DNA of 64,000 nt from Methylotenera sp. (lineage in GTDB: Bacteria > Pseudomonadota > Gammaproteobacteria > Burkholderiales > Methylophilaceae): contig JAUYAL010000051.1 of the NCBI GenBank assembly GCA_030693535.1, forward strand, positions 17,774-81,773, written 5' to 3'. A model generated the notes under the pieces. The model worked only from the letters and a program-made list of their open reading frames with translations. It ran no database searches and had not been told where the DNA came from. How positions within the stretch are numbered: the stretch's first letter is position 1; each line of letters starts with the position of its first letter. The translations under genes were made by a program, and so were the position numbers. Shown here in pieces: positions 33,779 to 48,704 of this stretch.

Positions 33779-33798
33779 AGCCGTCTTTGATGACGGCT
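33779..33798 (+). promoter_or_regulatory. Hairpin between micropeptide and ATPase ribosome site
   Basis: A 7-bp stem AGCCGTC/GACGGCT with a 6-nt loop, ending at the base that precedes the AAGGAG region (33799-33804) of the ATPase gene. It has no T tract, so it is more likely to affect translation initiation than termination. A different-sequence hairpin occupies the same place in module C. Confidence 0.55.
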
Positions 33799-33810
33799 CA
33801 AGGAGCTGTC

Positions 33811-34767
33811 ATGCCACAAATAACTACACATCTCATTGCAGATGAAATCAGTATAAAAAAACGCGTCGAAGAATTAAAAAATCGTTCCGATGATATTAAA
33901 AGTCGAATTGCGCATATCCTTAAACATCTTTGGAATCCTGAACGCACTGTCATAACGGTTCCAGGAAGTGTTGATTTAACTTTACTAAGGCAAAATTTCC
34001 CGCATTTTAGTGAAGTCATCGATTTTTACGAAAACTCAATCATTACACTTGATAGATTGGGTTTACCTTTTGAGGTTCCACCTGTTTTATTACTAGGGGA
34101 TCCAGGACTGGGTAAAACATATTTTACTAGCGAATTTGCCAAATGCATCAATATCCCTTTTTACGAAATATCCTTGGCTACAACCAGCTCTACTTTCGGA
34201 CTGAGTGGTGGAAATTTGCAATGGTCCGAAGGGTCGACTGGTTTTATCGCTAATACCCTAGCAAACAGTGAAGCTGCTAATCCAATCATCTTGATTGATG
34301 AAATTGATAAAGCACCATTAGACGCTAGATATAATCCTATGAACGTTTTTTATAGTTTACTAGAAGCTCATTCAGCGAAACGTTTTAAGGATGAAGCACT
34401 AGAAATTGAGATTGATGCAAGCAAAATCATCTGGATTGCCACTGGCAACTATGCCAATCAGATTCCAGCGCCCATTCAATCTAGAATGCGGATTTTTGAA
34501 ATAACCCAGCCCAGTCCGGATTGCATGCCAACTGTTATTACAAATATCTATAGACATGTAGTGAAGCATAAAGCCTATGGAAAACTTTTAGACGAGTCTT
34601 TAAATGATTCAGTCATTGATCATTTAACAAAACTATCCCCTAGAACTGTTAAATTAGCGATTGAGGAAGCCGCATTTAAGGCAATTTGTAACCATCGTGA
34701 CTCGATTATTATTAAGGATTTACCAAAGCTTGGAAAGGAGATATATCGTGTCGGATTTATTAAATGA
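33811..34767 (+). CDS. Lon-like AAA+ ATPase without protease domain (module A)
   Basis: 318 residues from the ATG at 33811, preceded by AAGGAG at 6 nt. An N-terminal helical part (1-90) is followed by an AAA+ core: Walker A G-D-P-G-L-G-K-T (96-103), Walker B L-I-D-E-I-D (161-166), sensor-1 Asn in A-T-G-N-Y (213) and likely Arg fingers in Q-S-R-M-R (225, 227). The segment L-L-E-A-H-S-A-K-R-F-K-D-E-A-L-E and the sensor region resemble the Lon AAA+ module, but no Ser-Lys protease domain follows. A divergent paralogue is at 40915-41868. The reading frame ends inside the zinc-ribbon gene, suggesting a complex of the two products. Its substrate is unknown. Confidence 0.8.
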   Translation: MPQITTHLIADEISIKKRVEELKNRSDDIKSRIAHILKHLWNPERTVITVPGSVDLTLLRQNFPHFSEVIDFYENSIITLDRLGLPFEVPPVLLLGDPGLGKTYFTSEFAKCINIPFYEISLATTSSTFGLSGGNLQWSEGSTGFIANTLANSEAANPIILIDEIDKAPLDARYNPMNVFYSLLEAHSAKRFKDEALEIEIDASKIIWIATGNYANQIPAPIQSRMRIFEITQPSPDCMPTVITNIYRHVVKHKAYGKLLDESLNDSVIDHLTKLSPRTVKLAIEEAAFKAICNHRDSIIIKDLPKLGKEIYRVGFIK

Positions 34768-35170
34768 ATCATTGGAAGAAAGTTTTAATGCAGAAAACTA
34801 TGTAAGAACTCTTTGTGAAAATACTAAGATAATTCTAAATCTTTATGCAAATGTTCAATTTCCAATTGGCTGGAAAAAGATTGTTGCAGAATTAATCAAT
34901 ACGATTAAAAACTATCCAGTTAGCATCACTAAAATTAATGACTCCTTTACTTTGTTGGAAGTTAAATTTGAGATAGCAAAGCCTACTAAAGAAGTATGTG
35001 TTTGGCGAGCCATTGATAAAGCGCGTTCTGATTCTGCATGTACGTGCGCATTGTGTGGGGAAGAAATGCGGTCCAGACAAAAATCGAATCCTTTTGAGTT
35101 GCTTTGCGTTGAATGTAAAAAAACTGCAGGAAAACTTGGTAAAACTCAAACTTGGTTGGATAAGTATTGA
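34748..35170 (+). CDS. Zinc-ribbon partner of the AAA+ ATPase (module A)
   Basis: 140 residues starting at GTG (34748), with AAGGAG 7 nt upstream and a 20-nt overlap with the ATPase. A middle region has F-P-I-G-W-K-K-I-V-A-E-L-I. A Cys4 ribbon follows: C100-x2-C103 and C120-x2-C123. The C-terminus is G-K-T-Q-T-W-L-D-K-Y. The module-C paralogue (40554-40931) has the same GTG start, overlap, P-I-G-W and T-W-L-D ending. The conserved C-terminal motif may be the contact with the ATPase. I recognise no named family. Confidence 0.75.
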   Translation: MSDLLNESLEESFNAENYVRTLCENTKIILNLYANVQFPIGWKKIVAELINTIKNYPVSITKINDSFTLLEVKFEIAKPTKEVCVWRAIDKARSDSACTCALCGEEMRSRQKSNPFELLCVECKKTAGKLGKTQTWLDKY

Positions 35171-38140: not shown

Positions 38141-39088
38141 TTACCTCTGCAATGGTTCAATAAATCGTGTCCAAAAATGCTCTGCAACACCTTCATTTCC
38201 TAGTAACTGCTCTCCACGACCACTGAAGCTCATCAATGGTTTGAACCCTAAAGAGTATCCATCGTCTGCTATGCTCATGCTTTCGTTATAACTATTATGA
38301 GTAATTCCATTTAGGCTAAAATACAGCTCATGTCCCATGCGATTATTTGCAATCCAAATTCCGCACTGACATATACGTTTACCTTGAGCGTAGACAGATG
38401 CTTCAAAAGAATTTGCATCAACTCTTTTAAATTGTGTCTCAATCCCGTGATTTCGTTTTTCCAATTCTTGAAGCGAGTTTTCGAAATAGCCAGATATGTA
38501 CTCAATAGCACCTAATTGAGCCAGATCATACTCCCTGTCAGTAAATGCTTTCTTGATTCTTAAATTGCTTGAACGATTGATAGTTTTCGGTATGGATTGA
38601 GCAATTTCATTTTGCTTAGGTACTAATACTTCTGTATTTAAACTTTTACGATTTAATTTCCCAATAGAAGTTTTGATCGCTTGTACTACTTGAAGGAACC
38701 CGTCATCGTACGTGGGAAAGTGTATGATGGGTTTACCATCTGCAGTAGCTGCTAGTAACTTACCAAAAGGAAGATCATGCCAATCACAGGGTCTTAAAAT
38801 TATGGGAATTACTATAGCTTCACCATTTTCGTGTCGTTGCAAAGCCCGCTTCATTTCAATCTCGAAGCAGTAGTCAGAAGCAATAAAATCAGGACTTACT
38901 AGCAATAGCACTATGTCTGCATTTTCAAACTGATTGCTAATTTCCTTGGAAAATTCTTGTCCAGCCGCAATTCTACGATCATGCCAGGTGTCTATAAGCC
39001 CTTGTCTTTTTAGACTGGCAAGATGAATTTCAAGTCTATTGCGAAGCTCTTCATCCGCATGTGAATAGGAGAATACAAGTGTCGGCAA
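38141..39088 (-). CDS. TIR-domain protein
   Basis: 315 residues starting at TTG, with GGGGT upstream, 14 nt after the gene before it. The first 130 residues form a TIR domain: L-V-F-S-Y-S-H-A-D-E, V-L-L-L-V-S-P-D-F-I and S-D-Y-C-F-E-I-E-M-K-R-A-L. Glu78 (in E-M) is the likely NAD-cleaving residue. R-P-C-D-W-H-D-L-P-F-G-K-L follows, as in many bacterial defence TIRs. A linker leads to a C-terminal domain of about 150 residues without recognised homology, possibly a sensor. Bacterial TIRs of this kind usually deplete NAD to stop phage growth. Confidence 0.85.
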   Translation of the reverse strand: MPTLVFSYSHADEELRNRLEIHLASLKRQGLIDTWHDRRIAAGQEFSKEISNQFENADIVLLLVSPDFIASDYCFEIEMKRALQRHENGEAIVIPIILRPCDWHDLPFGKLLAATADGKPIIHFPTYDDGFLQVVQAIKTSIGKLNRKSLNTEVLVPKQNEIAQSIPKTINRSSNLRIKKAFTDREYDLAQLGAIEYISGYFENSLQELEKRNHGIETQFKRVDANSFEASVYAQGKRICQCGIWIANNRMGHELYFSLNGITHNSYNESMSIADDGYSLGFKPLMSFSGRGEQLLGNEGVAEHFWTRFIEPLQR

Positions 39089-39102
39089 CGCTTACCCCAA
39101 AT

Positions 39103-39537
39103 CTAAACCAAAGGTTTCAAGAGTGCTAAATTGATGAAATTTACAATGATCTCAGGTGCCATATGCTCAATTTCGATTCTGTCTTTGTTCTCTTCAACTT
39201 CAAAGTCAGTTATTCCTTGACCGTTGTATGTGAATGAACCTATCACGTCTTCAAGTTCTTTAAATTTGGGGGTTATGCGTAAACAATAAATTGTGCCGAG
39301 TAACGAACCATCTTCAAGTGCGGTTGCAACCATTTGGAATCTAAGCCGCATTCCAGCAAAAAAAACATCAAAGTAATTATTGCCTGTTGGGGGCTCAAAT
39401 AAGAATCCGGGTATTTTCCATTTTGAATTTATCAAAAACTGTGACCCTCGGTAAAAGCGTTCGAATCCATCAACCAACGCAGGATAACGTTTATCAAAGT
39501 GAACAGTTTTTTCGTAGGCTTGAGCCACCAACTTCAT
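39103..39537 (-). CDS. Hypothetical partner of the TIR gene, 144 aa
   Basis: A soluble protein with alternating strands, e.g. F-D-V-F-F-A-G-M-R-L-R-F-Q-M-V and G-T-I-Y-C-L-R-I, and an acidic C-terminal half. It precedes the TIR gene by 14 nt in the same direction and is likely co-transcribed. It may be the sensor or regulator of the TIR effector; that is inference from position. No family recognised. Confidence 0.6.
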   Translation of the reverse strand: MKLVAQAYEKTVHFDKRYPALVDGFERFYRGSQFLINSKWKIPGFLFEPPTGNNYFDVFFAGMRLRFQMVATALEDGSLLGTIYCLRITPKFKELEDVIGSFTYNGQGITDFEVEENKDRIEIEHMAPEIIVNFINLALLKPLV

Positions 39538-39781
39538 ACATGTTTTCTGTTTAAGAATTAATTAATTAGATTGAACGAAAGCATACAATAAACTTCAATT
39601 TGTATGGCTAATTAATTTTAATCTATTGAGTGAATCAAGGAATAACACTATTGAAATCTTTACTTGCTGAAAATGGTGGTGGCTATATCAACTAAAATTT
39701 CACCTCTTGACCAGTACGTCGTTTACGCTCAATGCGTTCAGAACATTAAGATACTTCACATAACAATAAGAAATGGTTTAA

Positions 39782-40005
39782 ATGAAATAATCTTCGAAAC
39801 TAAAAATTGAGTCATTTCCTACAGATAATCAATATTGGAAGGTGGTTTGGATAAGCAATATCGAATTAAATCCCTTTTCAAAATCAGAGTATTCAGTTTC
39901 GACATTTCTCAAAAATGTAAGTAAAGTAACACTGAACCGACTTTAAATTATCGATATAGTGACATAGAGTTACTGCCAAATGATTTAGAAGAAGTTGCTT
40001 TGTAA
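39782..40005 (+). pseudogene. Decayed plus-strand gene
   Basis: ATG-AAA-TAA followed in frame by a good coding stretch (K-L-K-I-E-S-F-P-T-D-N-Q-Y-W-K-V-V-W-I), then a stop at about 39945. The neighbouring frame continues Y-R-Y-S-D-I-E-L-L-P-N-D-L-E-E-V-A-L and ends at 40005. A GGGG ribosome site then precedes a 16-codon frame at 40017-40067 (M-F-E-W-P-L-W-E-Y). So a small gene, and the beginning of the next, have been broken by one stop and one frameshift. The family is not recognised. The rest of the 39538-40074 gap shows nothing else. Confidence 0.45.
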
Positions 40006-40074
40006 GGGGAATTTTGATGTTTGAATGGCCGCTTTGGGAATATAGCCGTGATTTATTTATAGTCTAACCGCTAT

Positions 40075-40281
40075 TTAAACTACCCCACCATAACTGATTG
40101 CGCTAAGTATTTTTTTTACCTCAATAAGTCCTGAATCTGATTCAGCCATAGATATAGGAGTTGCACCTAGAATAAGATTCTTTCTGTTTAGCCAAGCTTC
40201 GGCTTCTGCTTTTGAACCGAACGTTTCAATTGCATGTGCTCGCATTTCATTAAGACGAAGTGATGTAGATTTCGTATTCAT
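40075..40281 (-). CDS. Orphan DUF2384 (MbcA/ParS/Xre-type) antitoxin
   Basis: 68 residues from the ATG at 40281. The C-terminal part (F-G-S-K-A-E-A-E-A-W-L through L-G-A-T-P-I-S-M and S-G-L-I-E-V-K-K-I-L through Y-G) is the DUF2384 toxin-binding domain. That domain normally follows an HTH and precedes a RES-domain NADase toxin. Here the HTH is missing and there is no RES gene on either side. It is either a trimmed antitoxin or a short variant that protects against RES toxins in trans. Confidence 0.7.
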   Translation of the reverse strand: MNTKSTSLRLNEMRAHAIETFGSKAEAEAWLNRKNLILGATPISMAESDSGLIEVKKILSAISYGGVV

Positions 40282-40403
40282 ACATAACCACCCAAGGAAT
40301 ATCAAAAGTTATAAAAATTCCCGATTCAGAAACTGGTTTATGCCGCTTCTAGCCATTTTAAAATTAATTATTGACATTCAATAACGTATTTTTCCAGATA
40401 TAT

Positions 40404-40529
40404 TCAATCGGATCTGTGAGAGATCCAAGTATTTCTCATTGCCCGCCAAAGTCTAACAAATGGTGACCAAAATGATGACCATCCCCGCTTAAATCCAATC
40501 AAAAATTCTTCTTTAAATGTTTTCCACAT
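40404..40529 (-). CDS. Aromatic-rich 41-aa small protein after module C
   Basis: The ATG lies 25 nt after the module-C zinc-ribbon gene in the same direction. The peptide begins M-W-K-T-F-K-E-E-F-L-I-G-F-K-R-G-W-S-S-F and continues W-S-P-F-V-R-L-W-R. It has a strikingly high Trp/Phe and Lys/Arg content, suggesting an amphipathic, membrane- or protein-binding helix. Module A has no equivalent. The composition and position argue for a real gene; no function is recognised. Confidence 0.5.
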   Translation of the reverse strand: MWKTFKEEFLIGFKRGWSSFWSPFVRLWRAMRNTWISHRSD

Positions 40530-40553
40530 AATTGATCTACCATCATTAGATGA

Positions 40554-40931
40554 TCAGAACGAATCTAACCATGTGCCCGTACGTTCCGCTTTAGTTGTAT
40601 CTATACAGTCTCTACAGATGCCTTCACTAACATCGCCAACACCACATCCTGCGCATAGTGTTGAAGCTTTCTTATGTGCCAAATAAACGGCTCTAAAAAC
40701 TTCCCCATGATTTTGATGAGAAACTGAAATCTCAAGACGGCCTTTCTTATCAGTGATTCCCCATATAATGACATTCCGAAACTTTTTCAGCGAATGGATG
40801 AATTCCTCAATTACAGAATTCCAACCTATAGGGTAGCGAGGTATACCGATCATTTGAATATTGGGTAAATCTGCAATCAAAGCATCAAAATGAAGATTTA
40901 CTTTTTTGTGTGCTTTAGATGAATCCGACAC
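40554..40931 (-). CDS. Zinc-ribbon partner of the AAA+ ATPase (module C)
   Basis: 125 residues from GTG (40931) with AAGGAG 7 nt upstream and a 17-nt overlap with its ATPase. It has P-I-G-W-N-S-V-I-E-E-F, a ribbon with C93-x2-C96 and C106-x2-C109, and the ending R-T-G-T-W-L-D-S-F. It is the counterpart of 34748-35170 but well diverged, so the duplication is old or the copies were acquired separately. Confidence 0.75.
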   Translation of the reverse strand: MSDSSKAHKKVNLHFDALIADLPNIQMIGIPRYPIGWNSVIEEFIHSLKKFRNVIIWGITDKKGRLEISVSHQNHGEVFRAVYLAHKKASTLCAGCGVGDVSEGICRDCIDTTKAERTGTWLDSF

Positions 40932-41868
40932 GATTAGGCTCCTTTGCAGATTTAAATAAGGTAATGTCTTCGCAGATAATAAAGTTTCTATCTTCGTTGA
41001 TCGCTCTCGTTGCTGCAAATGACAATAATCTTGAAGCCTCTCTTGGAATGCATGCTACTAATTTATCCAATACTGAATCATCAAGCTGTGGATTAAGTAC
41101 AGTTTCGTAACCATTCTCAAAGAGCAGGTTCTTGTACACATTATTCAGGATCTGCAGCATATCCTCAGGATTTAACTCACCAATCTCAATCACGTGAAAT
41201 CTGGAAATGACTGGTTCTGAAATATCTTCAATATAATTGGCTGTCGCTATCCAATTAATATGACTGGCATCAAGAATGAGTTCTAAAGCCTCATCTTTAA
41301 ATTGTCTGGCAGAGTGAGATTCCAATAACGATAATAAAGGTCCTATTGGATTTTGATTGCCACTGAGATTTGTTACTTTATCCATTTCATCTAATAAAAT
41401 GATTGGATTGGCACACGTGCTATCAGCTAAGGATTTGGCGACAAACCCAACATCTGCATCTCCCCATTGTAGACTGCCTCCCGCTAAGGCAAAGTTTCCA
41501 GAAATATTATTCATGGACAATCGGAAGAATGGCAAACCTAATGACTTAGCAAGTTCGCTCACAAAATAAGTTTTACCAATGCCTGGTGGCCCGAGTAGCA
41601 GAACTGGTTTAACTACAAATGGGCGTGGTAACTTTTGAGATCGAATAATGTATGGGCGATAAATATTCAATGTGTCCGTAAAATTTGGGAATTTTGAATA
41701 AAGTGTATCAATTCTTGATGTATCGTTAACCTCAAGTAACTCACGATCGGAATCCCACAATTTTTTTAAAGTTGGTCCGACTTTAGATTTGTAATCGATT
41801 CCACGATTTTTAATTTCTTTGACACGCTTCACCACATGCTCGTGTGAAACAAGTTCTATTGATTGCAT
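40915..41868 (-). CDS. Lon-like AAA+ ATPase without protease domain (module C)
   Basis: 317 residues with GGAG before the ATG. Walker A G-P-P-G-I-G-K-T (93-100), Walker B I-L-L-D-E-M-D (157-163), sensor-1 Asn in A-T-A-N-Y (211) and Arg223 in I-S-R-F match the module-A ATPase. Shared blocks include G-G-S-L-Q-W and L-L-E-S-H-S-A-R-Q-F-K-D-E-A-L-E. It also ends at about the length of an AAA+ core with no attached domain. It is transcribed leftward, opposite to module A. Its function is unknown; a remodelling role with the zinc-ribbon protein as adaptor is inference. Confidence 0.8.
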   Translation of the reverse strand: MQSIELVSHEHVVKRVKEIKNRGIDYKSKVGPTLKKLWDSDRELLEVNDTSRIDTLYSKFPNFTDTLNIYRPYIIRSQKLPRPFVVKPVLLLGPPGIGKTYFVSELAKSLGLPFFRLSMNNISGNFALAGGSLQWGDADVGFVAKSLADSTCANPIILLDEMDKVTNLSGNQNPIGPLLSLLESHSARQFKDEALELILDASHINWIATANYIEDISEPVISRFHVIEIGELNPEDMLQILNNVYKNLLFENGYETVLNPQLDDSVLDKLVACIPREASRLLSFAATRAINEDRNFIICEDITLFKSAKEPNRVGFI

Positions 41869-41879
41869 GATGACTCCTT

Positions 41880-41894
41880 GCCATTCGAAATGGC
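41880..41894 (-). promoter_or_regulatory. Hairpin ahead of the module-C ATPase ribosome site
   Basis: GCCATT/AATGGC with a 3-nt loop, immediately followed by AAGGAG. It takes the same position as the module-A hairpin but shares no sequence with it, which suggests the structure matters. Confidence 0.5.
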
Positions 41895-41929
41895 GATGGT
41901 TGATAAGATGACTAAAGTTAATTAGTCAG

Positions 41930-42064
41930 TCACCGACCGGTAGAGCCTATGCGCTTTAAATATAGTGCGGGATGAATGGAGGGGGTTTTAAGACGTAATC
42001 GCGCTCCCTCACATGATGTAAGGAATTCCGATGCGGTATTTAATCTTAAATGAGTTATGGACAT
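41930..42064 (-). CDS. 44-aa micropeptide, copy C (ALYLKRIGSTGR motif)
   Basis: ATG at 42064, beginning M-S-I-T-H-L-R-L-N-T-A-S-E-F-L and ending I-H-P-A-L-Y-L-K-R-I-G-S-T-G-R. The N-terminal two thirds are unrelated to copy A; the last 12 residues are identical. The conserved codons differ mostly at silent positions from copy A. It lies 61 nt ahead of the module-C ATPase ATG. Confidence 0.55.
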   Translation of the reverse strand: MSITHLRLNTASEFLTSCEGARLRLKTPSIHPALYLKRIGSTGR

Positions 42065-42072
42065 ACATTTCT

Positions 42073-42101
42073 AATATACCTCACACCATCATTAAAGTCA
42101 A
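42073..42101 (-). promoter_or_regulatory. Promoter of micropeptide/AAA+ module C
   Basis: On the minus strand TTGACT (42101-42096), 17-nt spacer, TATATT (42078-42073). The ATG of the micro-ORF is 8 nt beyond the -10 hexamer, again giving a leaderless or nearly leaderless message. Upstream, TTGTACAA and an AT-rich stretch recall R1. Confidence 0.6.
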
Positions 42102-42489
42102 ATAATTGTTTATAATCAAATACTTGTACAACATAAACGATTCAGTGATTCTTTTTTATGGGAATTAATTAGACAAGTTTTCAGTGATCATTTTTAATAT
42201 AAACTGATGTAAAAAGGATACTAATGAATACATTTCATTTTATAAAAATCAATTTTACAAGATATAAAATAAAATTTTTACGATGTAAATTACATATTTC
42301 TTCAACTATTACGATGATATTTAGGTAGGAGATAGCATGAAATTTAATGAAGCTTTTGATACTTATTAATACAAGGAAATCGTTAAATTTCTTGCATTCA
42401 ATTAATTTTTGGAATTTTAGACTTTCAAAGGATACTAAATGAGTAAAAAAACTGTTCTTATGGAAGGTGTAAGTTAAAAAGGAACACTG
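42102..42489. other. AT-rich gap with short plus-strand coding remnants
   Basis: Very AT-rich. GGAG followed by ATG at 42337 opens a 10-codon frame (M-K-F-N-E-A-F-D-T-Y) stopped by TAA. A second short frame begins at 42439 (M-S-K-K-T-V-L-M-E-G-V-S). Two similar AAGGATACTAA boxes (about 42213 and 42428) precede ATGs. These look like debris of a third, plus-strand module whose tail is at 42490. The 88-codon minus-strand frame here has no coding character. Confidence 0.35.
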
Positions 42490-42522
42490 TGCAAAACTCA
42501 AGTCTGGTTGGATAAGTACTAA
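42490..42522 (+). pseudogene. C-terminal remnant of a third zinc-ribbon partner gene
   Basis: Encodes C-K-T-Q-V-W-L-D-K-Y and a stop. Module A ends G-K-T-Q-T-W-L-D-K-Y, and the nucleotide match is close across the same stretch. The remainder of the gene is lost. It shows that a third copy of the module once lay here in the plus orientation. Confidence 0.6.
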
Positions 42523-42645
42523 CTAAACCTAATGGAATTGGAGCATGGTAGGACAACATATTAATAAAATTGCGCATGTAAAAATTCATACGAATTTAAA
42601 TAGTTTGAGATATGGTATGAGAGTTAAAAAACGCTTATCAAATAT

Positions 42646-43440
42646 TTAAGAAGCAACATTTAATGGGCAATTGTCCATAGTCATGCAACAAGATTGTCCT
42701 TTGCGGTATTTCCAGAATAGCTCTATTTCCAAATCTTGCAAAAATATACTTGTAATTAATTCTTTTATTTGAATAGCATGATCACTGCATGACCGAATTG
42801 GTTTGCGTTTAACTTTTGAATTTTTTATACATAAACAGGATTGTCTTTTGTTTGCTACCATATCTAATGTCTTCCAGACTGAGCAGAGATGTTTAGATCC
42901 TAGATAAAGCCTTAAAAGTGGACCGCGAGAATCATTTAATCTCACATGCTTAACGGTCAATTGTTTTTGAATAAGTAAATCATAATATTCAGCCCCCAAT
43001 GCCCTTGCAGCATTTTCTGCGGAATTTTGAAACTTGGCAGCATTCCCATGCGCCCATTCTTTTCCAGGCCACTTTCGATTTTTTGCTGCACGAACTTGCA
43101 ATGATAGATATCGCAGTAAATGTGACCACCATTCAATCGCTGATTTCTGATCCAAAACCGTTAAATCTTGAAAACCCTGCCAGTTTATGCAAAATGTGCC
43201 ATCATTATTTATATGACGTTCCGGACAAGAGCTTGGCAATTGATTTGGCGTTGTCTCTTTTGCGTAAATTTTATTCTTTTCATCAACTAAACTTAGTAGA
43301 TATACTCTAGAACTCCCATCTGATAATTCTAGGGTTATCTCAAAACTAGCTTCAGTTGCATTGATTCTTTTTATCAGCCGTGCATTAATTTGATCTGCAG
43401 TCTCAATTAATAAAGCAAGCGCATCAATGCCAATTGTCAT
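42646..43440 (-). CDS. E2-like (ubiquitin-conjugating-fold) protein with Cys-rich tail
   Basis: 264 residues. The segment C-P-E-R-H-I-N-N-D-G-T-F-C-I-N-W (72-87) matches the E2 pattern H-P-N...G-x-C. His76-Ile-Asn78 would take the place of HPN, and Cys84 would be the catalytic Cys. Conserved W-W and W-P-x-K-E-W-A-H-G blocks follow (about 104-132). The C-terminal third has C186, C202, C204, C218, H221, C251, C252 and C258, probably a metal-binding domain. It overlaps the upstream cyclase gene by 4 nt (ATGA). E2-like proteins in CBASS attach a signalling enzyme to targets; an analogous role here is inference. No E1 gene is present. Confidence 0.6.
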   Translation of the reverse strand: MTIGIDALALLIETADQINARLIKRINATEASFEITLELSDGSSRVYLLSLVDEKNKIYAKETTPNQLPSSCPERHINNDGTFCINWQGFQDLTVLDQKSAIEWWSHLLRYLSLQVRAAKNRKWPGKEWAHGNAAKFQNSAENAARALGAEYYDLLIQKQLTVKHVRLNDSRGPLLRLYLGSKHLCSVWKTLDMVANKRQSCLCIKNSKVKRKPIRSCSDHAIQIKELITSIFLQDLEIELFWKYRKGQSCCMTMDNCPLNVAS

Positions 43441-44948
43441 AGGCAGTGAGGTCGAATACTTAATTCTGCTGCAGACGCAATTGCTGGTTTACTATTTGCA
43501 TACGCTTCATTCTTGGCTTGTTTGGCAGTTGTATCGGTTTCAGCAAGTGATTCAATAGCTTCTAGATAATCCAAATCTGCAACCATTCTTGTCGATCCAA
43601 ATAGATCCTTCACCGCTTGGCGAGCTTTATTAAAAGCCGTTTTACCAATTGCAGTTGAATCACTATCACACCTGCCTTGTTCGTCTTCTGAGATTAGTAC
43701 AGACCTACTAACTGCACATCTAACCCGAGAGCCTTTGATCCCAAGTCGTGATATCGAAATCGGACCGAAATCAAGTCCAATTTGCAAGCCTAAGTTTTCG
43801 ACATCAATGCCAGCCTTTGCCAATTCTTTTAAAGCTAAATTAAAGCTGCTGCGAAAACCACCACTGCATAAAACAGCTTCAGTTATTGTATTTTCGGTCT
43901 CAGTAGTTTGTGCAGTACCTAAGCACAAGACACCATGTAGGCAATCTCCAATAAATCGTATCTTTCTGCCTTCAAAGTCAGAAGTTAAAACATTATCTAA
44001 CTCACTACGTATCACGTGAAAAATCTTGACTACATCTTGAGTATCATCATCAATATGGTTCTGAATAAAGTTAGTGAAACCATCAATATCAGCATAAATT
44101 GATATCATGTCCTGACGCCTAGAATTACCAGGAGTCAAAAGTGAAATATCCAAAGTGGCCATTGGTGGTGTATGACCTGTAAACTCGAATAAGCCAATTG
44201 GATTGTCATCAAGATCTTTTTTCCAATCTTTGATAATCTGGTCTTTCGTGACACTTAATTTAGAATCAACTTCACACGATTCGATTTCACTGGTAGTCAG
44301 TCGTGTAATTTTAGGATTATCAACACTGTCAATACCTATTGCTTCACGTGCTTTATTGGTTAAATAAATGCCAGGATTAGAATGACCAGATGCTAATTTT
44401 GCTGCTTCGTTAGCTGGTGGACCTAGAAATAACGGTTCTCTGCCTTTTCTTCTACCGTTATTAACTACAAGTGATTTGCCGCTATCAATGCCAACACATA
44501 CTTTTGCATTAGGAATGTCATCCGTTTCATCGCCAGTTTCTTTCAAGACACTGATGATTAACTGGCCTATAGCAACAGCTTTTTTGATTCTGTCTTCTTC
44601 AGAATCATAAGGCTTAAAAATGACTGCATGTAATCGCTGATTGTGAAAATCCACTTTTAAGGCATCACATGCATCTAGGATGCGATGAGCTGCACGATAG
44701 TGCAGATTCAAAAATCTAAGTGCGCGTTTGTGAGAAGTTGTACCTTCAGACTCTGTTGAGCCGAGGATATCATCCAAATTGGCTATATCAATGTAAAGAT
44801 GTACAGAATCACTTCGATAGGCTGTGTTTGTCGGAATATTTTCTAAAGACATTCCTCGCTGGTACTCTTTGATTTCAACATTCTCAACTTCATTCAGCAA
44901 CTTTTGGATGCGTTCAGAGGCTCTTTTTTCAGACCAGGTATGTGCCAT
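43437..44948 (-). CDS. Tandem two-domain class III nucleotide cyclase
   Basis: 503 residues with two cyclase-fold domains. Domain 1 (about 48-205): the first metal Asp is D54 (Y-I-D-I-A-N); the second-metal position in D-F-H-N-Q-R lacks the usual G-D; N180 and K184 (P-A-N-E-A-A-K-L) fill the transition-state positions. Domain 2 (about 280-430): D287 (Y-A-D-I-D-G-F-T) and D335 (I-G-D) supply both metal ligands, but the N-x-A-A-R motif is absent. The two halves look complementary, as in mammalian adenylate cyclase C1/C2, predicting one active site. The product nucleotide cannot be inferred. It begins 31 nt from a CIRCE operator. Confidence 0.75.
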   Translation of the reverse strand: MAHTWSEKRASERIQKLLNEVENVEIKEYQRGMSLENIPTNTAYRSDSVHLYIDIANLDDILGSTESEGTTSHKRALRFLNLHYRAAHRILDACDALKVDFHNQRLHAVIFKPYDSEEDRIKKAVAIGQLIISVLKETGDETDDIPNAKVCVGIDSGKSLVVNNGRRKGREPLFLGPPANEAAKLASGHSNPGIYLTNKAREAIGIDSVDNPKITRLTTSEIESCEVDSKLSVTKDQIIKDWKKDLDDNPIGLFEFTGHTPPMATLDISLLTPGNSRRQDMISIYADIDGFTNFIQNHIDDDTQDVVKIFHVIRSELDNVLTSDFEGRKIRFIGDCLHGVLCLGTAQTTETENTITEAVLCSGGFRSSFNLALKELAKAGIDVENLGLQIGLDFGPISISRLGIKGSRVRCAVSRSVLISEDEQGRCDSDSTAIGKTAFNKARQAVKDLFGSTRMVADLDYLEAIESLAETDTTAKQAKNEAYANSKPAIASAAELSIRPHCL

Positions 44949-45097
44949 AATTAAAAACCTTTATAATCAAAAATGTTGATTAGCACTCTACTCGCTAGAG
45001 TGCTAAAAATCAATATTTGGAATTGAAATCTGCAGTACTGCAAATTAGCTAGGAATTTTTAACTAATAACAAAATAGATAAAACAAAGGGGTAACTA
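44949..45097. promoter_or_regulatory. Divergent promoter region of the two cyclase units
   Basis: This 149-nt region separates the tandem-cyclase/E2 pair (leftward) from the TIR/PycC pair (rightward). On the minus strand GATTATAAA (about 44960-44968) is a possible -10, which would place the -35 inside the CIRCE element. Rightward -10/-35 hexamers are less clear. A GCAGTACTGC palindrome lies near 45030. Confidence 0.5.
44980..45006. promoter_or_regulatory. CIRCE operator (HrcA-binding site)
   Basis: TTAGCACTC (44980-44988), nine bases, GAGTGCTAA (44998-45006): an exact match to the CIRCE consensus bound by the repressor HrcA, which normally controls groESL and dnaK. No chaperone gene is nearby. 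Its place in the middle of the divergent gap suggests that both cyclase units are released from HrcA repression under protein-folding stress. The site is seen in sequence; the regulation is inference. Confidence 0.85.
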
Positions 45098-46006
45098 ATG
45101 AAAGAGCGATTTGAAGAGAAAAACGGTAAGCGTATATTAATTGAAACGCTGAAACGTCAAAAAACCGTGAACGGTGACGAAGCGTTAGCATTGCTCATCT
45201 CTGAATCAATCGAAATAATAGAAGTTCCTGAGGGTACGGTACTTACTACACAAGGGGAGTCTAGCAATGATGTATATTTCATATTAATGGGAGCATTCCA
45301 AATTATTGTCAATGGCAAACATTTATATAATAGGTTTGCTGATGATTTAATTGGAGAAATGACCGCAATACAACCTACCCAATTGAGATCAGCTACAGTA
45401 ATATCTAATGAAATATCAGTTGTAGCAAAAATGACTGAAGAAAATTTCAGCGACATCGGCTCCAAATATCCAATATTTTACAAATCTATCGCTCAGATTT
45501 TGGCTAAAAGGTTGTTGCAACGTAATAGCTTGATTCCAAAGAAAAATCAAAAACCAAGAGTTTTTATCATATGCTCTGTCGAAGCATTGCCGGTGGGCAG
45601 ATTAGTTCAAGAGCTTTTAGAATATGATGGAGTCATAGTAACTTTATGGAGTGAAGGAGTATTTAGAGTTACTAACTACACGTTACATTCTTTGGAAGAA
45701 AAAGTGGAAGAATCTGACTTTGCAATTGCTATAGCTAATGGTGATGATATTGTAAATTCCAGAGATATTATATGGCCAGCAGTCAGAGATAATGTTATTT
45801 TTGAGCTCGGCTTGTTCATGGGTAGACTTGGTAGAGAGCGCGCGATTTTAATGGAACCTAAAGATGAAAAGGTAAAATTACCAAGTGATCTCTGTGGCAT
45901 TACAACGATTGGTTACAGGTATGTTCCAGGTAAAGATGAAGAATCAATAATGGGTGCAACCGTAAATAAAATTCGCAAACATATCAAAGAGCATGGGCTC
46001 AGATAA
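45098..46006 (+). CDS. Pycsar effector: cyclic-nucleotide-binding domain fused to TIR-like domain
   Basis: 302 residues. The N-terminal CRP-like domain (about 20-145) has the phosphate-binding cassette G-E-M-T-A-I followed by R-S-A-T (86-100). The C-terminal domain (about 153-300) is the TIR-like PF10137 type: R-V-F-I-I-C-S-V, W-x-E-G-V-F and the signature D-N-V-I-F-E-L-G-L-F-M-G-R-L-G-R with Glu236. This is the PycTIR architecture: on binding cCMP or cUMP made by the neighbouring cyclase it destroys NAD and stops growth. The cyclase gene follows after 2 nt. Confidence 0.85.
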   Translation: MKERFEEKNGKRILIETLKRQKTVNGDEALALLISESIEIIEVPEGTVLTTQGESSNDVYFILMGAFQIIVNGKHLYNRFADDLIGEMTAIQPTQLRSATVISNEISVVAKMTEENFSDIGSKYPIFYKSIAQILAKRLLQRNSLIPKKNQKPRVFIICSVEALPVGRLVQELLEYDGVIVTLWSEGVFRVTNYTLHSLEEKVEESDFAIAIANGDDIVNSRDIIWPAVRDNVIFELGLFMGRLGRERAILMEPKDEKVKLPSDLCGITTIGYRYVPGKDEESIMGATVNKIRKHIKEHGLR

Positions 46007-46008
46007 AC

Positions 46009-46704
46009 GTGGCTTTAAAATCCGATCTTGAATCCGACATTGGAAATGTGTTTTCTCAGTCTTGGGAAGAAACCGTTGGACGAGTAGTACCTGTTCCCAA
46101 CGATGTTGGTTTAAATAACAAGGTTGTTTATTTAGAGAATGCAGTCGTCCTTTATGCTGATTTAGATGGTTCTACAAAAATGGTAGCTGAAAACAAATGG
46201 GAATTTAGTGCTGAAATTTATAAATCATTTCTTCTTAGTGCCGCAAAAATTATAAAATCCGAAAATGGTGCAATAACTTCTTATGACGGCGATCGTATAA
46301 TGGCTATATTCATAGGTGCAGAAAAATATGATCGCGCAGTTAGATCTGCTTTGAAAATAAGATGGGTAGTTTTGAATGTGATACAACCCCGCATGCAGAA
46401 AAATTGGTCGACTGAGTTTAAAGTCAAACATACCGTAGGAATTGATGCGAGCAATCTTAGAGCTGTTCGAACAGGCGTTCGCGGTGATAACGACTTAGTT
46501 TGGGTAGGAAATGCGGCAAATTGGGCAGCGAAATTGACAACTTTACCTAATGCTTACTCAACCTATATCACACAAGCTGTCTACCAAAATCTAAGTGGAG
46601 CTTGTAAAATTAGTAACAATAAATCGATGTGGGAACTCGCAGTATGGTCACAGCAAAATAACAAGCCTATTTACAGGTCGCATTGGACTTGGAGTATTAA
46701 CTGA
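46009..46704 (+). CDS. Pycsar pyrimidine cyclase (PycC-like), single class III cyclase domain
   Basis: 231 residues starting at GTG directly after the effector. Metal Asp residues are D51 (Y-A-D-L-D-G-S-T) and D95 (Y-D-G-D-R), with the transition-state N171 and K175 in V-G-N-A-A-N-W-A-A-K-L. Unlike the tandem cyclase it has all catalytic elements in one domain, so it should act as a homodimer. Adjacency to the CNB-TIR gene identifies it as the cyclase of a Pycsar system, which answers phage infection with cCMP or cUMP. Which of the two is made cannot be told. Confidence 0.82.
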   Translation: MALKSDLESDIGNVFSQSWEETVGRVVPVPNDVGLNNKVVYLENAVVLYADLDGSTKMVAENKWEFSAEIYKSFLLSAAKIIKSENGAITSYDGDRIMAIFIGAEKYDRAVRSALKIRWVVLNVIQPRMQKNWSTEFKVKHTVGIDASNLRAVRTGVRGDNDLVWVGNAANWAAKLTTLPNAYSTYITQAVYQNLSGACKISNNKSMWELAVWSQQNNKPIYRSHWTWSIN

Positions 46705-46892
46705 TTTTTATAACTCAATTGTCGTGAGTTTTAAAATTACATTATTAGAATTCAGAAATTGTTGTAGCGTTGACAAACGATATGCATTCAATGAGTTTTT
46801 CTACTAAATCTTTTTAGGCTTATAAACTATATGATTTCGAATTTGATTTAATTAAATTAGCTGTAAAATTGGCTATGTATTCATCAAGTTTG

Positions 46893-48704
46893 TTATAAAT
46901 TTACACCGGTTGAATCAATCGTCAAATGAAATTTTGCAGGTTCAACTGCCAATAAATGATTGGAGAAGCTTTTTTCATTTTCACATCTCCACGTTGCCCA
47001 CAATTTATTTCCAAGCGGATCGGAGCTTCCAGTATCTAATTCAAAAGCCAACCAATTTCTTGCCGGCATCACATATTTGTTAAAGCCTGGAAAAATCATC
47101 ATTTCAACAACAAGCTGTATGTCAATTGTTTGAGGCTTACTTGCTGTGCTATTGAGTAAATGTAAGAATAGTTTTTCGAAAACCCCTACTAAAGATGGAT
47201 GTACAACGGCTGATGAAGTGAACTGTTGGATCTGCGCCCAATTGGTCTGAGGAGGCAAGTCTTTGCGATATGCAGTCCCCCATGCTGCAACATGGACATC
47301 TCCTGATGCAATGGATACTCTTAATTTTTTACTTTCTGCAATATTGATTAATGTTTCAAGAAGCCGTTTTCTCTCACCTTCGTGATCGTCGTGCGACCAG
47401 TGGTCTTTTAAATCATCTGCATTACTATCTAATACATTATCTTGTCCGAATACATCAAACAAACCCTCGGCAAGTGTTAATTTTGGGTGAGCGACTGGAA
47501 CGGAAGATAAAAAAATCAGATGTTGGCATTTTTTTCCTGGATATACTGGTTTACCTGGTTTAAGATTTGATAACCAAGACTGTAATGATCTCCAACTACT
47601 GGGGCCTAAAATTTGAGTCCTTGACCTTTCTGTTCTAAGATCCGCAGCTACTAGACTAATTGGGCCAATTTCAAATGCAAAAGTAAATCCTGGCTGATCC
47701 ATTAATATTGGTAATGCCAAAAGATCTTTTTGCTGATGCGCAGCCCAATCAATTAACTGAAACTGCGGATCCTTTTTTGAAATGTTGAACTGGGTGATCT
47801 TATCTAGTGTTGGTAAATCCTCAAGCACATGCTGCATTTGAAAAACCCAAAATGCTTTTCGTGCATAGTGAAAAAGTGTTTGAAATAAATTGGATTCCTG
47901 CATGTCCACACTATATGAACCCCACCCGTCAAAGATATCATGGTCATCCCACATCATAACTGTAGGGATTCTGGCCATTGCATCGGCAGCATCCTGATTC
48001 AACTCATTTGATCCCCAGTCTTTTCTAGATGGTGGCAACCATCTAGAGCTATATAGGTTGAAATAATACCTCTCTATTTTCTTCTCAAGCTTTTTATCAA
48101 CGTTAAAGATTAATTGATTATCTCTGGATAATTGCACCCAATCTTTTAGTTCTTTTATGTCTTCCCAAATAGAGTCAAAATAAATTTGATCCCCACCCAT
48201 CACTAATAAGTGAAACCGCTGGAGGTTTTTATCTTGTGTTCTCGTTTCATGCCACAACTGCTCTTTATCTAATTCGTAATTATTTTTGCGTAAGTGACGG
48301 TCATGATTGCTTAATAGATCTGCCCAAACAGAATTGGATTCTCTTACCAATTTTCTCATACCACTCGGATCTGAGAATCCGTTGCAGGAGACGTAAGCCA
48401 TGCGTGGAGCAAAATCAATACCTGGAATAGTAAAACTCCACACTTGCCCTTCACACACATTAATAGTTAGATCAACTTTTCGTTCTTGAGTATCTAATTT
48501 ACAACTCACGTCATATCGCAAGTATTGTTGATTATCATGCTCCAAAAGAATTACAGGATTTGCGCAATTACGTCCTTCTACAGATAGAACCGGTTGCTCA
48601 AAACTTTTTGGGATGCCAATTAATGCCGTCACTTTCCAATGCCCTTCTTCGCTGATTCCGCGAAATGAAAGCACTGGTCCAAGTATTAATGGTTGTTTTG
48701 GCAT
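46893..48704 (-). CDS. PhoD-like metallophosphatase
   Basis: 603 residues, no signal peptide, so cytoplasmic unlike classic secreted PhoD. The metal motifs are M-G-G-D-Q-I-Y-F-D, W-D-D-H-D-I-F-D-G-W and S-G-D-V-H-V-A-A-W-G. A beta-rich N-terminal region (about 1-110) precedes the phosphatase core. It ends a four-gene minus-strand run and converges on the Pycsar pair. A phosphodiesterase role towards nucleotides or lipids is possible; the substrate is unknown. Confidence 0.8.
   Translation of the reverse strand: MPKQPLILGPVLSFRGISEEGHWKVTALIGIPKSFEQPVLSVEGRNCANPVILLEHDNQQYLRYDVSCKLDTQERKVDLTINVCEGQVWSFTIPGIDFAPRMAYVSCNGFSDPSGMRKLVRESNSVWADLLSNHDRHLRKNNYELDKEQLWHETRTQDKNLQRFHLLVMGGDQIYFDSIWEDIKELKDWVQLSRDNQLIFNVDKKLEKKIERYYFNLYSSRWLPPSRKDWGSNELNQDAADAMARIPTVMMWDDHDIFDGWGSYSVDMQESNLFQTLFHYARKAFWVFQMQHVLEDLPTLDKITQFNISKKDPQFQLIDWAAHQQKDLLALPILMDQPGFTFAFEIGPISLVAADLRTERSRTQILGPSSWRSLQSWLSNLKPGKPVYPGKKCQHLIFLSSVPVAHPKLTLAEGLFDVFGQDNVLDSNADDLKDHWSHDDHEGERKRLLETLINIAESKKLRVSIASGDVHVAAWGTAYRKDLPPQTNWAQIQQFTSSAVVHPSLVGVFEKLFLHLLNSTASKPQTIDIQLVVEMMIFPGFNKYVMPARNWLAFELDTGSSDPLGNKLWATWRCENEKSFSNHLLAVEPAKFHLTIDSTGVNL

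Follow-up and report, generated by a model that had tools for sequence, protein, structure and literature searches.

CIRCE operators at divergent Pycsar and CBASS promoters suggest that the folding-stress repressor HrcA may control cyclic-nucleotide immunity in Betaproteobacteria

Some phages depend on GroEL, and the CIRCE operator normally switches on protein-folding helpers during stress; a paper on the HrcA/CIRCE regulon reportedly covers Betaproteobacteria. As described in the sections of PMC8533110 consulted here, the model in which misfolded protein titrates GroE was first proposed for Bacillus subtilis, and in Campylobacter jejuni the binding of HrcA is enhanced by GroE and abolished by heat. 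Control of immune operons by stress repressors is also established: according to the sections of PMC13373217 consulted, CapW/BrxR, CapH+CapP and CapK+CapS are transcriptional repressors that gate CBASS, Pycsar, BREX and similar systems until stress, all of them being encoded adjacent to their targets and answering DNA damage, and that paper makes no use of the word "heat". In the corresponding portion of PMC5282649, the site of a restriction-modification controller overlaps CIRCE at clpB, with no immune operon under HrcA. Among open-licence PMC papers we found none that links HrcA or CIRCE to CBASS, Pycsar or phage defence and none on CIRCE, HrcA and betaproteobacteria together, a result that does not by itself establish absence from print. 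As far as this literature shows, the placement of CBASS and Pycsar operons under HrcA would be a new variation on a known principle.

The window, i.e. the whole 64-kb stretch of DNA analysed here, contains gyrB, dnaA, atpA and glmS, and among named proteins its YidC is closest to those of Methylotenera (87% identity, with unnamed ones reaching 95%); it is therefore assigned to the chromosome of a Methylophilaceae bacterium. Two divergent gene pairs in its defence island encode a Pycsar-like system. On the minus strand, a tandem Pycsar-type cyclase (PycC) of 503 aa (43437..44948; PADLOC PDLC00762, 717.7 bits; Guanylate_cyc at residues 279-406) is followed by a prokaryotic E2 protein of 264 aa (42646..43440; Pfam E2-ntca PF20298 and E2-Crich PF20272; PDLC00868, 256.8 bits), the gene of which overlaps the stop of the cyclase gene. 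On the plus strand, a PycTIR effector of 302 aa with cyclic-nucleotide-binding and TIR domains (45098..46006; Pfam CAP12-PCTIR_TIR PF10137 and cNMP_binding PF00027; PDLC00731 and PDLC02371) is followed by a single-domain PycC of 231 aa (46009..46704; PADLOC PDLC00766, 317.8 bits; no Pfam match). The locus thus has the two hallmarks of Pycsar, namely PycC-type cyclases, for which the product is predicted, and a cyclic-nucleotide-binding effector, and it shares the cyclases and the TIR effector with the described systems by both PADLOC and Pfam. It differs from them in being split into two divergent units that share a CIRCE-containing promoter region, the tandem cyclase and the E2 gene forming one of these units.

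Neither an HTH nor a WYL match was found among the nine proteins encoded at 38141-48704, a scan of products of at least 140 aa that a small regulator could escape. CapW/BrxR, CapH+CapP and CapK+CapS are dedicated neighbours of the operons that they repress, whereas the window carries the predicted operator of a host-wide folding-stress repressor, with no regulator gene among the flanking proteins scanned. Elsewhere in the island, two look-alike pairs of an AAA ATPase and a small protein lie in opposite orientation at 33787-35170 (plus strand) and 40554-41868 (minus strand) and have weak DolB/TRIP13-like matches. The 315-aa TIR protein encoded at 38141-39088 (minus strand) is a full-length match to Thoeris ThsB (410.7 bits), and its neighbour at 39103-39537 had no match.

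The start codons of the tandem cyclase and PycTIR are separated by a 149-nt gap (44949..45097), in which the motif scan identified the CIRCE inverted repeat TTAGCACTC-N9-GAGTGCTAA at 44980..45006 with 0 mismatches in its 9-bp arms around the N9 spacer. Pairing of the arms extends two bases inward, to 11 bp (TTAGCACTCTA-CTCGC-TAGAGTGCTAA). The site is the only match in the 64-kb window at up to 3 mismatches, and no match at this threshold occurred in any of 100 dinucleotide shuffles of the window. The initial annotation had described an exact CIRCE located between a tandem-cyclase/E2 pair and a PycTIR/cyclase pair; the exactness is confirmed by the scan and the location by the gene coordinates and the Pfam and PADLOC matches. 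The distances to the start codons, 31 nt for the tandem cyclase and 91 nt for PycTIR, are those of a canonical promoter or leader operator, the comparable distance to groES being 48-85 nt in the loci read. The promoter scan revealed no good sigma-70 promoter beside the site: the 149-nt gap contains no sigma-70-like pair above the scan threshold, and the sole listed pair falls inside PycTIR (shuffle mean 1.3). A perfect TATAAT is found on the plus strand at 44962-44967, 12 nt before the CIRCE, with a -35 element that matches at 2 of 6 positions. Between the CIRCE and PycTIR, a 12-bp palindrome, TGCAGTACTGCA, at 45031-45042 represents a possible second operator.

The regulator and its known targets were assessed in 187 genomes of the host family other than that of the window, sampled around the related genome G117, the YidC of which is 66% identical to that of the window. 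HrcA was found above the Pfam cut-off in 177 of these 187 genomes, and CIRCE sites at up to 1 mismatch in 183, most of which have exactly two; a reversed-pattern control gave no match in the 187 genomes at the same threshold. Among 46 family sites read, 24 have groE and 19 have rpoH within 1 kb, and one further site lies in a copy of the groES leader at a contig end. The canonical CIRCE targets in the genomes read are rpoH and groE, to which grpE is added in some genomes. The lack of an HrcA gene, which had been named at the outset as an observation that would speak against regulation by HrcA, is the exception at the level of the family. The window resembles the described HrcA/CIRCE heat-shock regulon in the same exact 9-N9-9 operator and its promoter position, in a family where HrcA is widespread, and differs from it in the target, which is immune signalling instead of chaperones and sigma-32.

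The reading that we favour, with a probability of about 0.7, is that host HrcA has been repeatedly recruited in Betaproteobacteria to keep cyclic-nucleotide immune operons repressed until folding stress occurs, where binding, repression and release are inferred from sequence. It is favoured because the site in the window is exact and unique, HrcA and CIRCE occur across the family, the same site is present in a diverged Pycsar locus, and CIRCE is found upstream of several CBASS operons. According to this model, host HrcA would bind the predicted operator at 44980-45006 and repress one or both divergent units (tandem cyclase-E2 and PycTIR-PycC). Repression would be lifted when GroEL is occupied by misfolded or phage proteins, or when HrcA is inactivated by heat, and the immune genes would then be expressed together with groESL and rpoH. 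Such operons would have come under HrcA repeatedly, the window locus being one instance.

The diverged Pycsar locus, L021, originates from a betaproteobacterial metagenome-assembled genome, G001, and is the only one of 87 PycTIR loci scanned (79 from genome contigs and 8 from viral contigs) with a promoter CIRCE at up to 5 mismatches. Its CIRCE is exact and has the same position, with a divergent tandem cyclase-E2 pair on one side and PycTIR on the other. The proteins of the two loci are 48% and 55% identical, and their promoter stretches have no BLAST match to each other at E 1e-3; when the two gaps are compared in ungapped 27-nt alignments, the CIRCE itself scores highest (20/27), and the best alignment elsewhere has 18 identities. 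On the cyclase side of L021, a TTGACT-17-TATAGT box stops 2 nt short of the CIRCE. Taken alone this box is weak, since shuffles yield a mean of 0.7 such pairs; if it is the promoter, HrcA bound there would cover the start point. G001 encodes HrcA and contains three perfect CIRCE sites, at rpoH, at groES and at the Pycsar locus.

The link between HrcA-CIRCE and cyclic-nucleotide immunity that the initial annotation had proposed gains from the presence of HrcA in the family and from the recurrence of the site in L021 and at CBASS operons (in G574, G355, G695, G703 and G746), but as a general feature of Pycsar loci it does not stand. CIRCE is missing from 12 of the 13 divergent tandem-cyclase/PycTIR loci (in four of the 13 the gap is about 1 kb or longer) and from 19 of the 20 betaproteobacterial PycTIR loci, some of which end early at contig ends. 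The other PycTIR loci of the 87-locus scan, from Xanthomonadaceae, Comamonadaceae, alphaproteobacteria and others, likewise have no promoter CIRCE at up to 5 mismatches. The plasmid stretches read for five matches (L204 and L375-L378, of which two share a plasmid) have no CIRCE at up to 4 mismatches, and the tandem cyclase was not found in phage records.

These absences bear on the possibility that the CIRCE in the window is an unused relic, left when the locus landed behind, or captured, a fragment of a chaperone promoter. The tandem cyclase was found at E 1e-60 in none of the 187 family genomes, a search made without a known-positive genome, and for this reason the Pycsar locus of the window was probably acquired horizontally. 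Both this pattern and the absence of CIRCE from nearly all divergent relatives would fit a relic. However, in the loci compared, the resemblance of the sites in the window, L021, G574 and G355 to groES or rpoH leaders is confined to the CIRCE and a few adjacent bases, and the site is exact and recurs upstream of unrelated operons; we therefore consider a relic unlikely.

Recurrence was evaluated at up to 1 mismatch in 762 different genomes of the order, counted by handle and drawn from three samples (187, 399 and 200 genomes). CIRCE was detected in 183/187 genomes of the host family, 333/399 of the order and 199/200 of the family of G355, and three sites were present in 21 of the 762 genomes. 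We read 152 sites, comprising all 63 sites of the 21 three-site genomes and 89 sites from one- and two-site genomes, most of which lay outside this reading, so that the count of extra sites is a lower bound. Sites were assigned to groE or rpoH by a tblastn match within 1 kb to reference copies named GroES, GroEL or RpoH by Pfam and NCBIfam, and three grpE genes were recognized by Pfam GrpE. A batch of 78 sites gave 39 groE, 37 rpoH and 2 other; a batch of 46 gave 24 groE, 19 rpoH and 3 other; and a batch of 24 sites from eight genomes gave 9 groE, 8 rpoH, 3 grpE and 4 other. The remaining sites read were three from G001 (rpoH, groES and Pycsar) and one, the last, from G574 (rpoH).

Nine of the 63 sites in three-site genomes fall outside groE, rpoH and grpE, after exclusion of the third site of G552, which was rejected as an overlapping contig end with the groES leader. 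Six of these nine precede CBASS or Pycsar operons, of several types in all; among the perfect ones the proportion is four in six. The extra sites of G001, G574, G355, G695, G229 and G664 are perfect, and those of G703, G746 and G454 have one mismatch. The reversed-pattern control had one match in each of two genomes, from the 399-genome and 200-genome samples, which means that some of the one-mismatch sites may be chance occurrences. That the repeat in the window is itself accidental, or belongs to another regulator with the same inverted repeat, could appeal to these control matches, but it is very improbable given the empty shuffles, the six perfect sites among nine where chance sites would seldom be perfect, and the near-universal occurrence of HrcA in the family.

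Two other interpretations of the surveyed sites were rejected. A Tn7-like tniQ gene under CIRCE in G001 proved to be divergent from an ordinary groES operator on a contig that starts within groES; the two TniQ/TnsD genes found there directly divergent from groES (L254:1-3394) suggest a Tn7-like element by the groES promoter. The idea that CIRCE is an att site duplicated on integration is unsupported: the extra site of G574 adjoins core-like genes 24 kb from the rpoH site, and in other genomes the CIRCE sites are on separate contigs or far apart.

The CBASS operons with a CIRCE upstream, in G574, G355, G695, G703 and G746, all combine cyclase, E2 or E1-E2, and effector genes. In G574, a perfect CIRCE lies 79 nt before genes for a DncV-like cyclase, an E2 protein and a SAVED-2TM effector, and in G355 a perfect CIRCE lies 78 nt before genes for a cyclase, E1-E2, JAB and SAVED-HNH; both spacings are within the range observed for groES. 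In G695, the perfect site precedes the listed start of a cyclase gene by 400 nt, and genes for E2 and a 4TM effector follow that gene. One-mismatch sites are found 281 nt before the listed first-gene start in G703 (cyclase, E2, second cyclase and 4TM effector) and 493 nt before that in G746 (SAVED-HNH, exonuclease, cyclase and E1-E2). The one-mismatch CIRCE of G454 overlaps the 5' end of a listed ORF with weak defence-type matches (RTasMBL, LmuA), downstream of which are genes for an E2A-ThiF protein and for a product with a match to the PADLOC candidate PDC-M48B. The perfect sites of G229 and G664 are each 203 nt upstream of a gene, for a KilA-N protein with a partial BstA match near a contig end and for a GhoS-like protein, respectively; at neither is there a clear cyclic-nucleotide gene. 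All eight loci formed by the window and G001, G574, G355, G695, G703, G746 and G454 include an E2 or E1-E2 gene, which may only mirror the commonness of such CBASS types.

The cyclases of the CBASS loci with CIRCE belong to four PADLOC groups; that of G574 is 25-27% identical to those of G695 and G703 and has no reported match to that of G355, with 49% identity between the G695 and G703 enzymes. Such divergence argues against the spread of a single operon. G703 and G746 share a leader that is ~90% identical around the CIRCE, so that there are fewer than six independent cases, and they have different CBASS cargo with a phage-type integrase beside each. Searches with two of the CBASS cyclases as single proteins found no viral relatives.

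In G695 and G703, and in G746 as judged from sequence, the CIRCE is separated from the CBASS genes by a short unit that combines a CATATAAT box with a strong hairpin resembling a terminator (fold z of -3.5 and -5.3 for G695 and G703, the two that were folded). Direct control by CIRCE is less obvious in these three loci because of the distances of 281-493 nt and the intervening hairpin, and it may be indirect. The unit, of ~100 nt, is divergent and possibly non-coding, with its hairpin facing the CIRCE (L371:5786-6185, L363:2759-3039 and L359:3066-3558); it has no Rfam match in L371 or L363 and could be a small RNA associated with CBASS of this type. At 1.6 kb beyond the CIRCE of the G695 CBASS locus, an array of 17 tRNA matches begins (L371:7825-10164). 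KfrA-N proteins accompany CIRCE-bearing CBASS or Pycsar cargo in L379 and L255 (family search) and in L363 (by eye), and their occurrence in L363, L359/L379 and L255, with integrases in the two CBASS cases, points to a family of integrative elements, some of which share a CIRCE leader.

The collected loci suggest that immunity of this kind may be under the control of protein-folding stress, and the purpose of such control can be read in more than one way. HrcA may repress the locus merely as part of a general thermal or growth-state gating of a toxic TIR/cyclase pair, without induction by phage, a proposal that has the same HrcA core as our favoured reading and overlaps with it. Gating of a costly system takes fewer steps, agrees with the response of HrcA to heat and chaperonin availability in C. 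jejuni described in the consulted sections of PMC8533110, and fits the sequence equally well, the two being inseparable on this ground; yet it leaves the concentration of extra sites on cyclic-nucleotide systems unexplained, and we place it somewhat short of even odds. A bolder extension, which we hold only tentatively and find rather doubtful, is that HrcA-GroEL serves as a guard: use of the chaperonin by a phage would strip HrcA from CIRCE and simultaneously switch on groESL, rpoH, Pycsar and E2-bearing CBASS, and mobile elements would carry CIRCE leaders that plug immune cargo into the folding-stress sensor of the host.

If HrcA has indeed been recruited to these operons, a host-wide folding-stress repressor would represent a second kind of trigger beside the dedicated local repressors that sense DNA damage, and immunity would be tied to temperature and chaperonin load. 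Removal of hrcA, heat or a GroEL-dependent phage should then raise the immune transcripts. Recruitment of this kind would further account for the way in which immune cargo gained by horizontal transfer could be wired into a new host without a regulator of its own.

Exact CIRCE sites were also observed in 104 stretches of viral contigs (L095-L198). Of six viral CIRCE neighbours checked, that in L133 had no family and five are chaperones, namely GroES (L099), GroEL (L166, 331 nt off) and Hsp20 (L104, L117 and L168); viral genomes, too, seem to plug into the HrcA regulon of the host.
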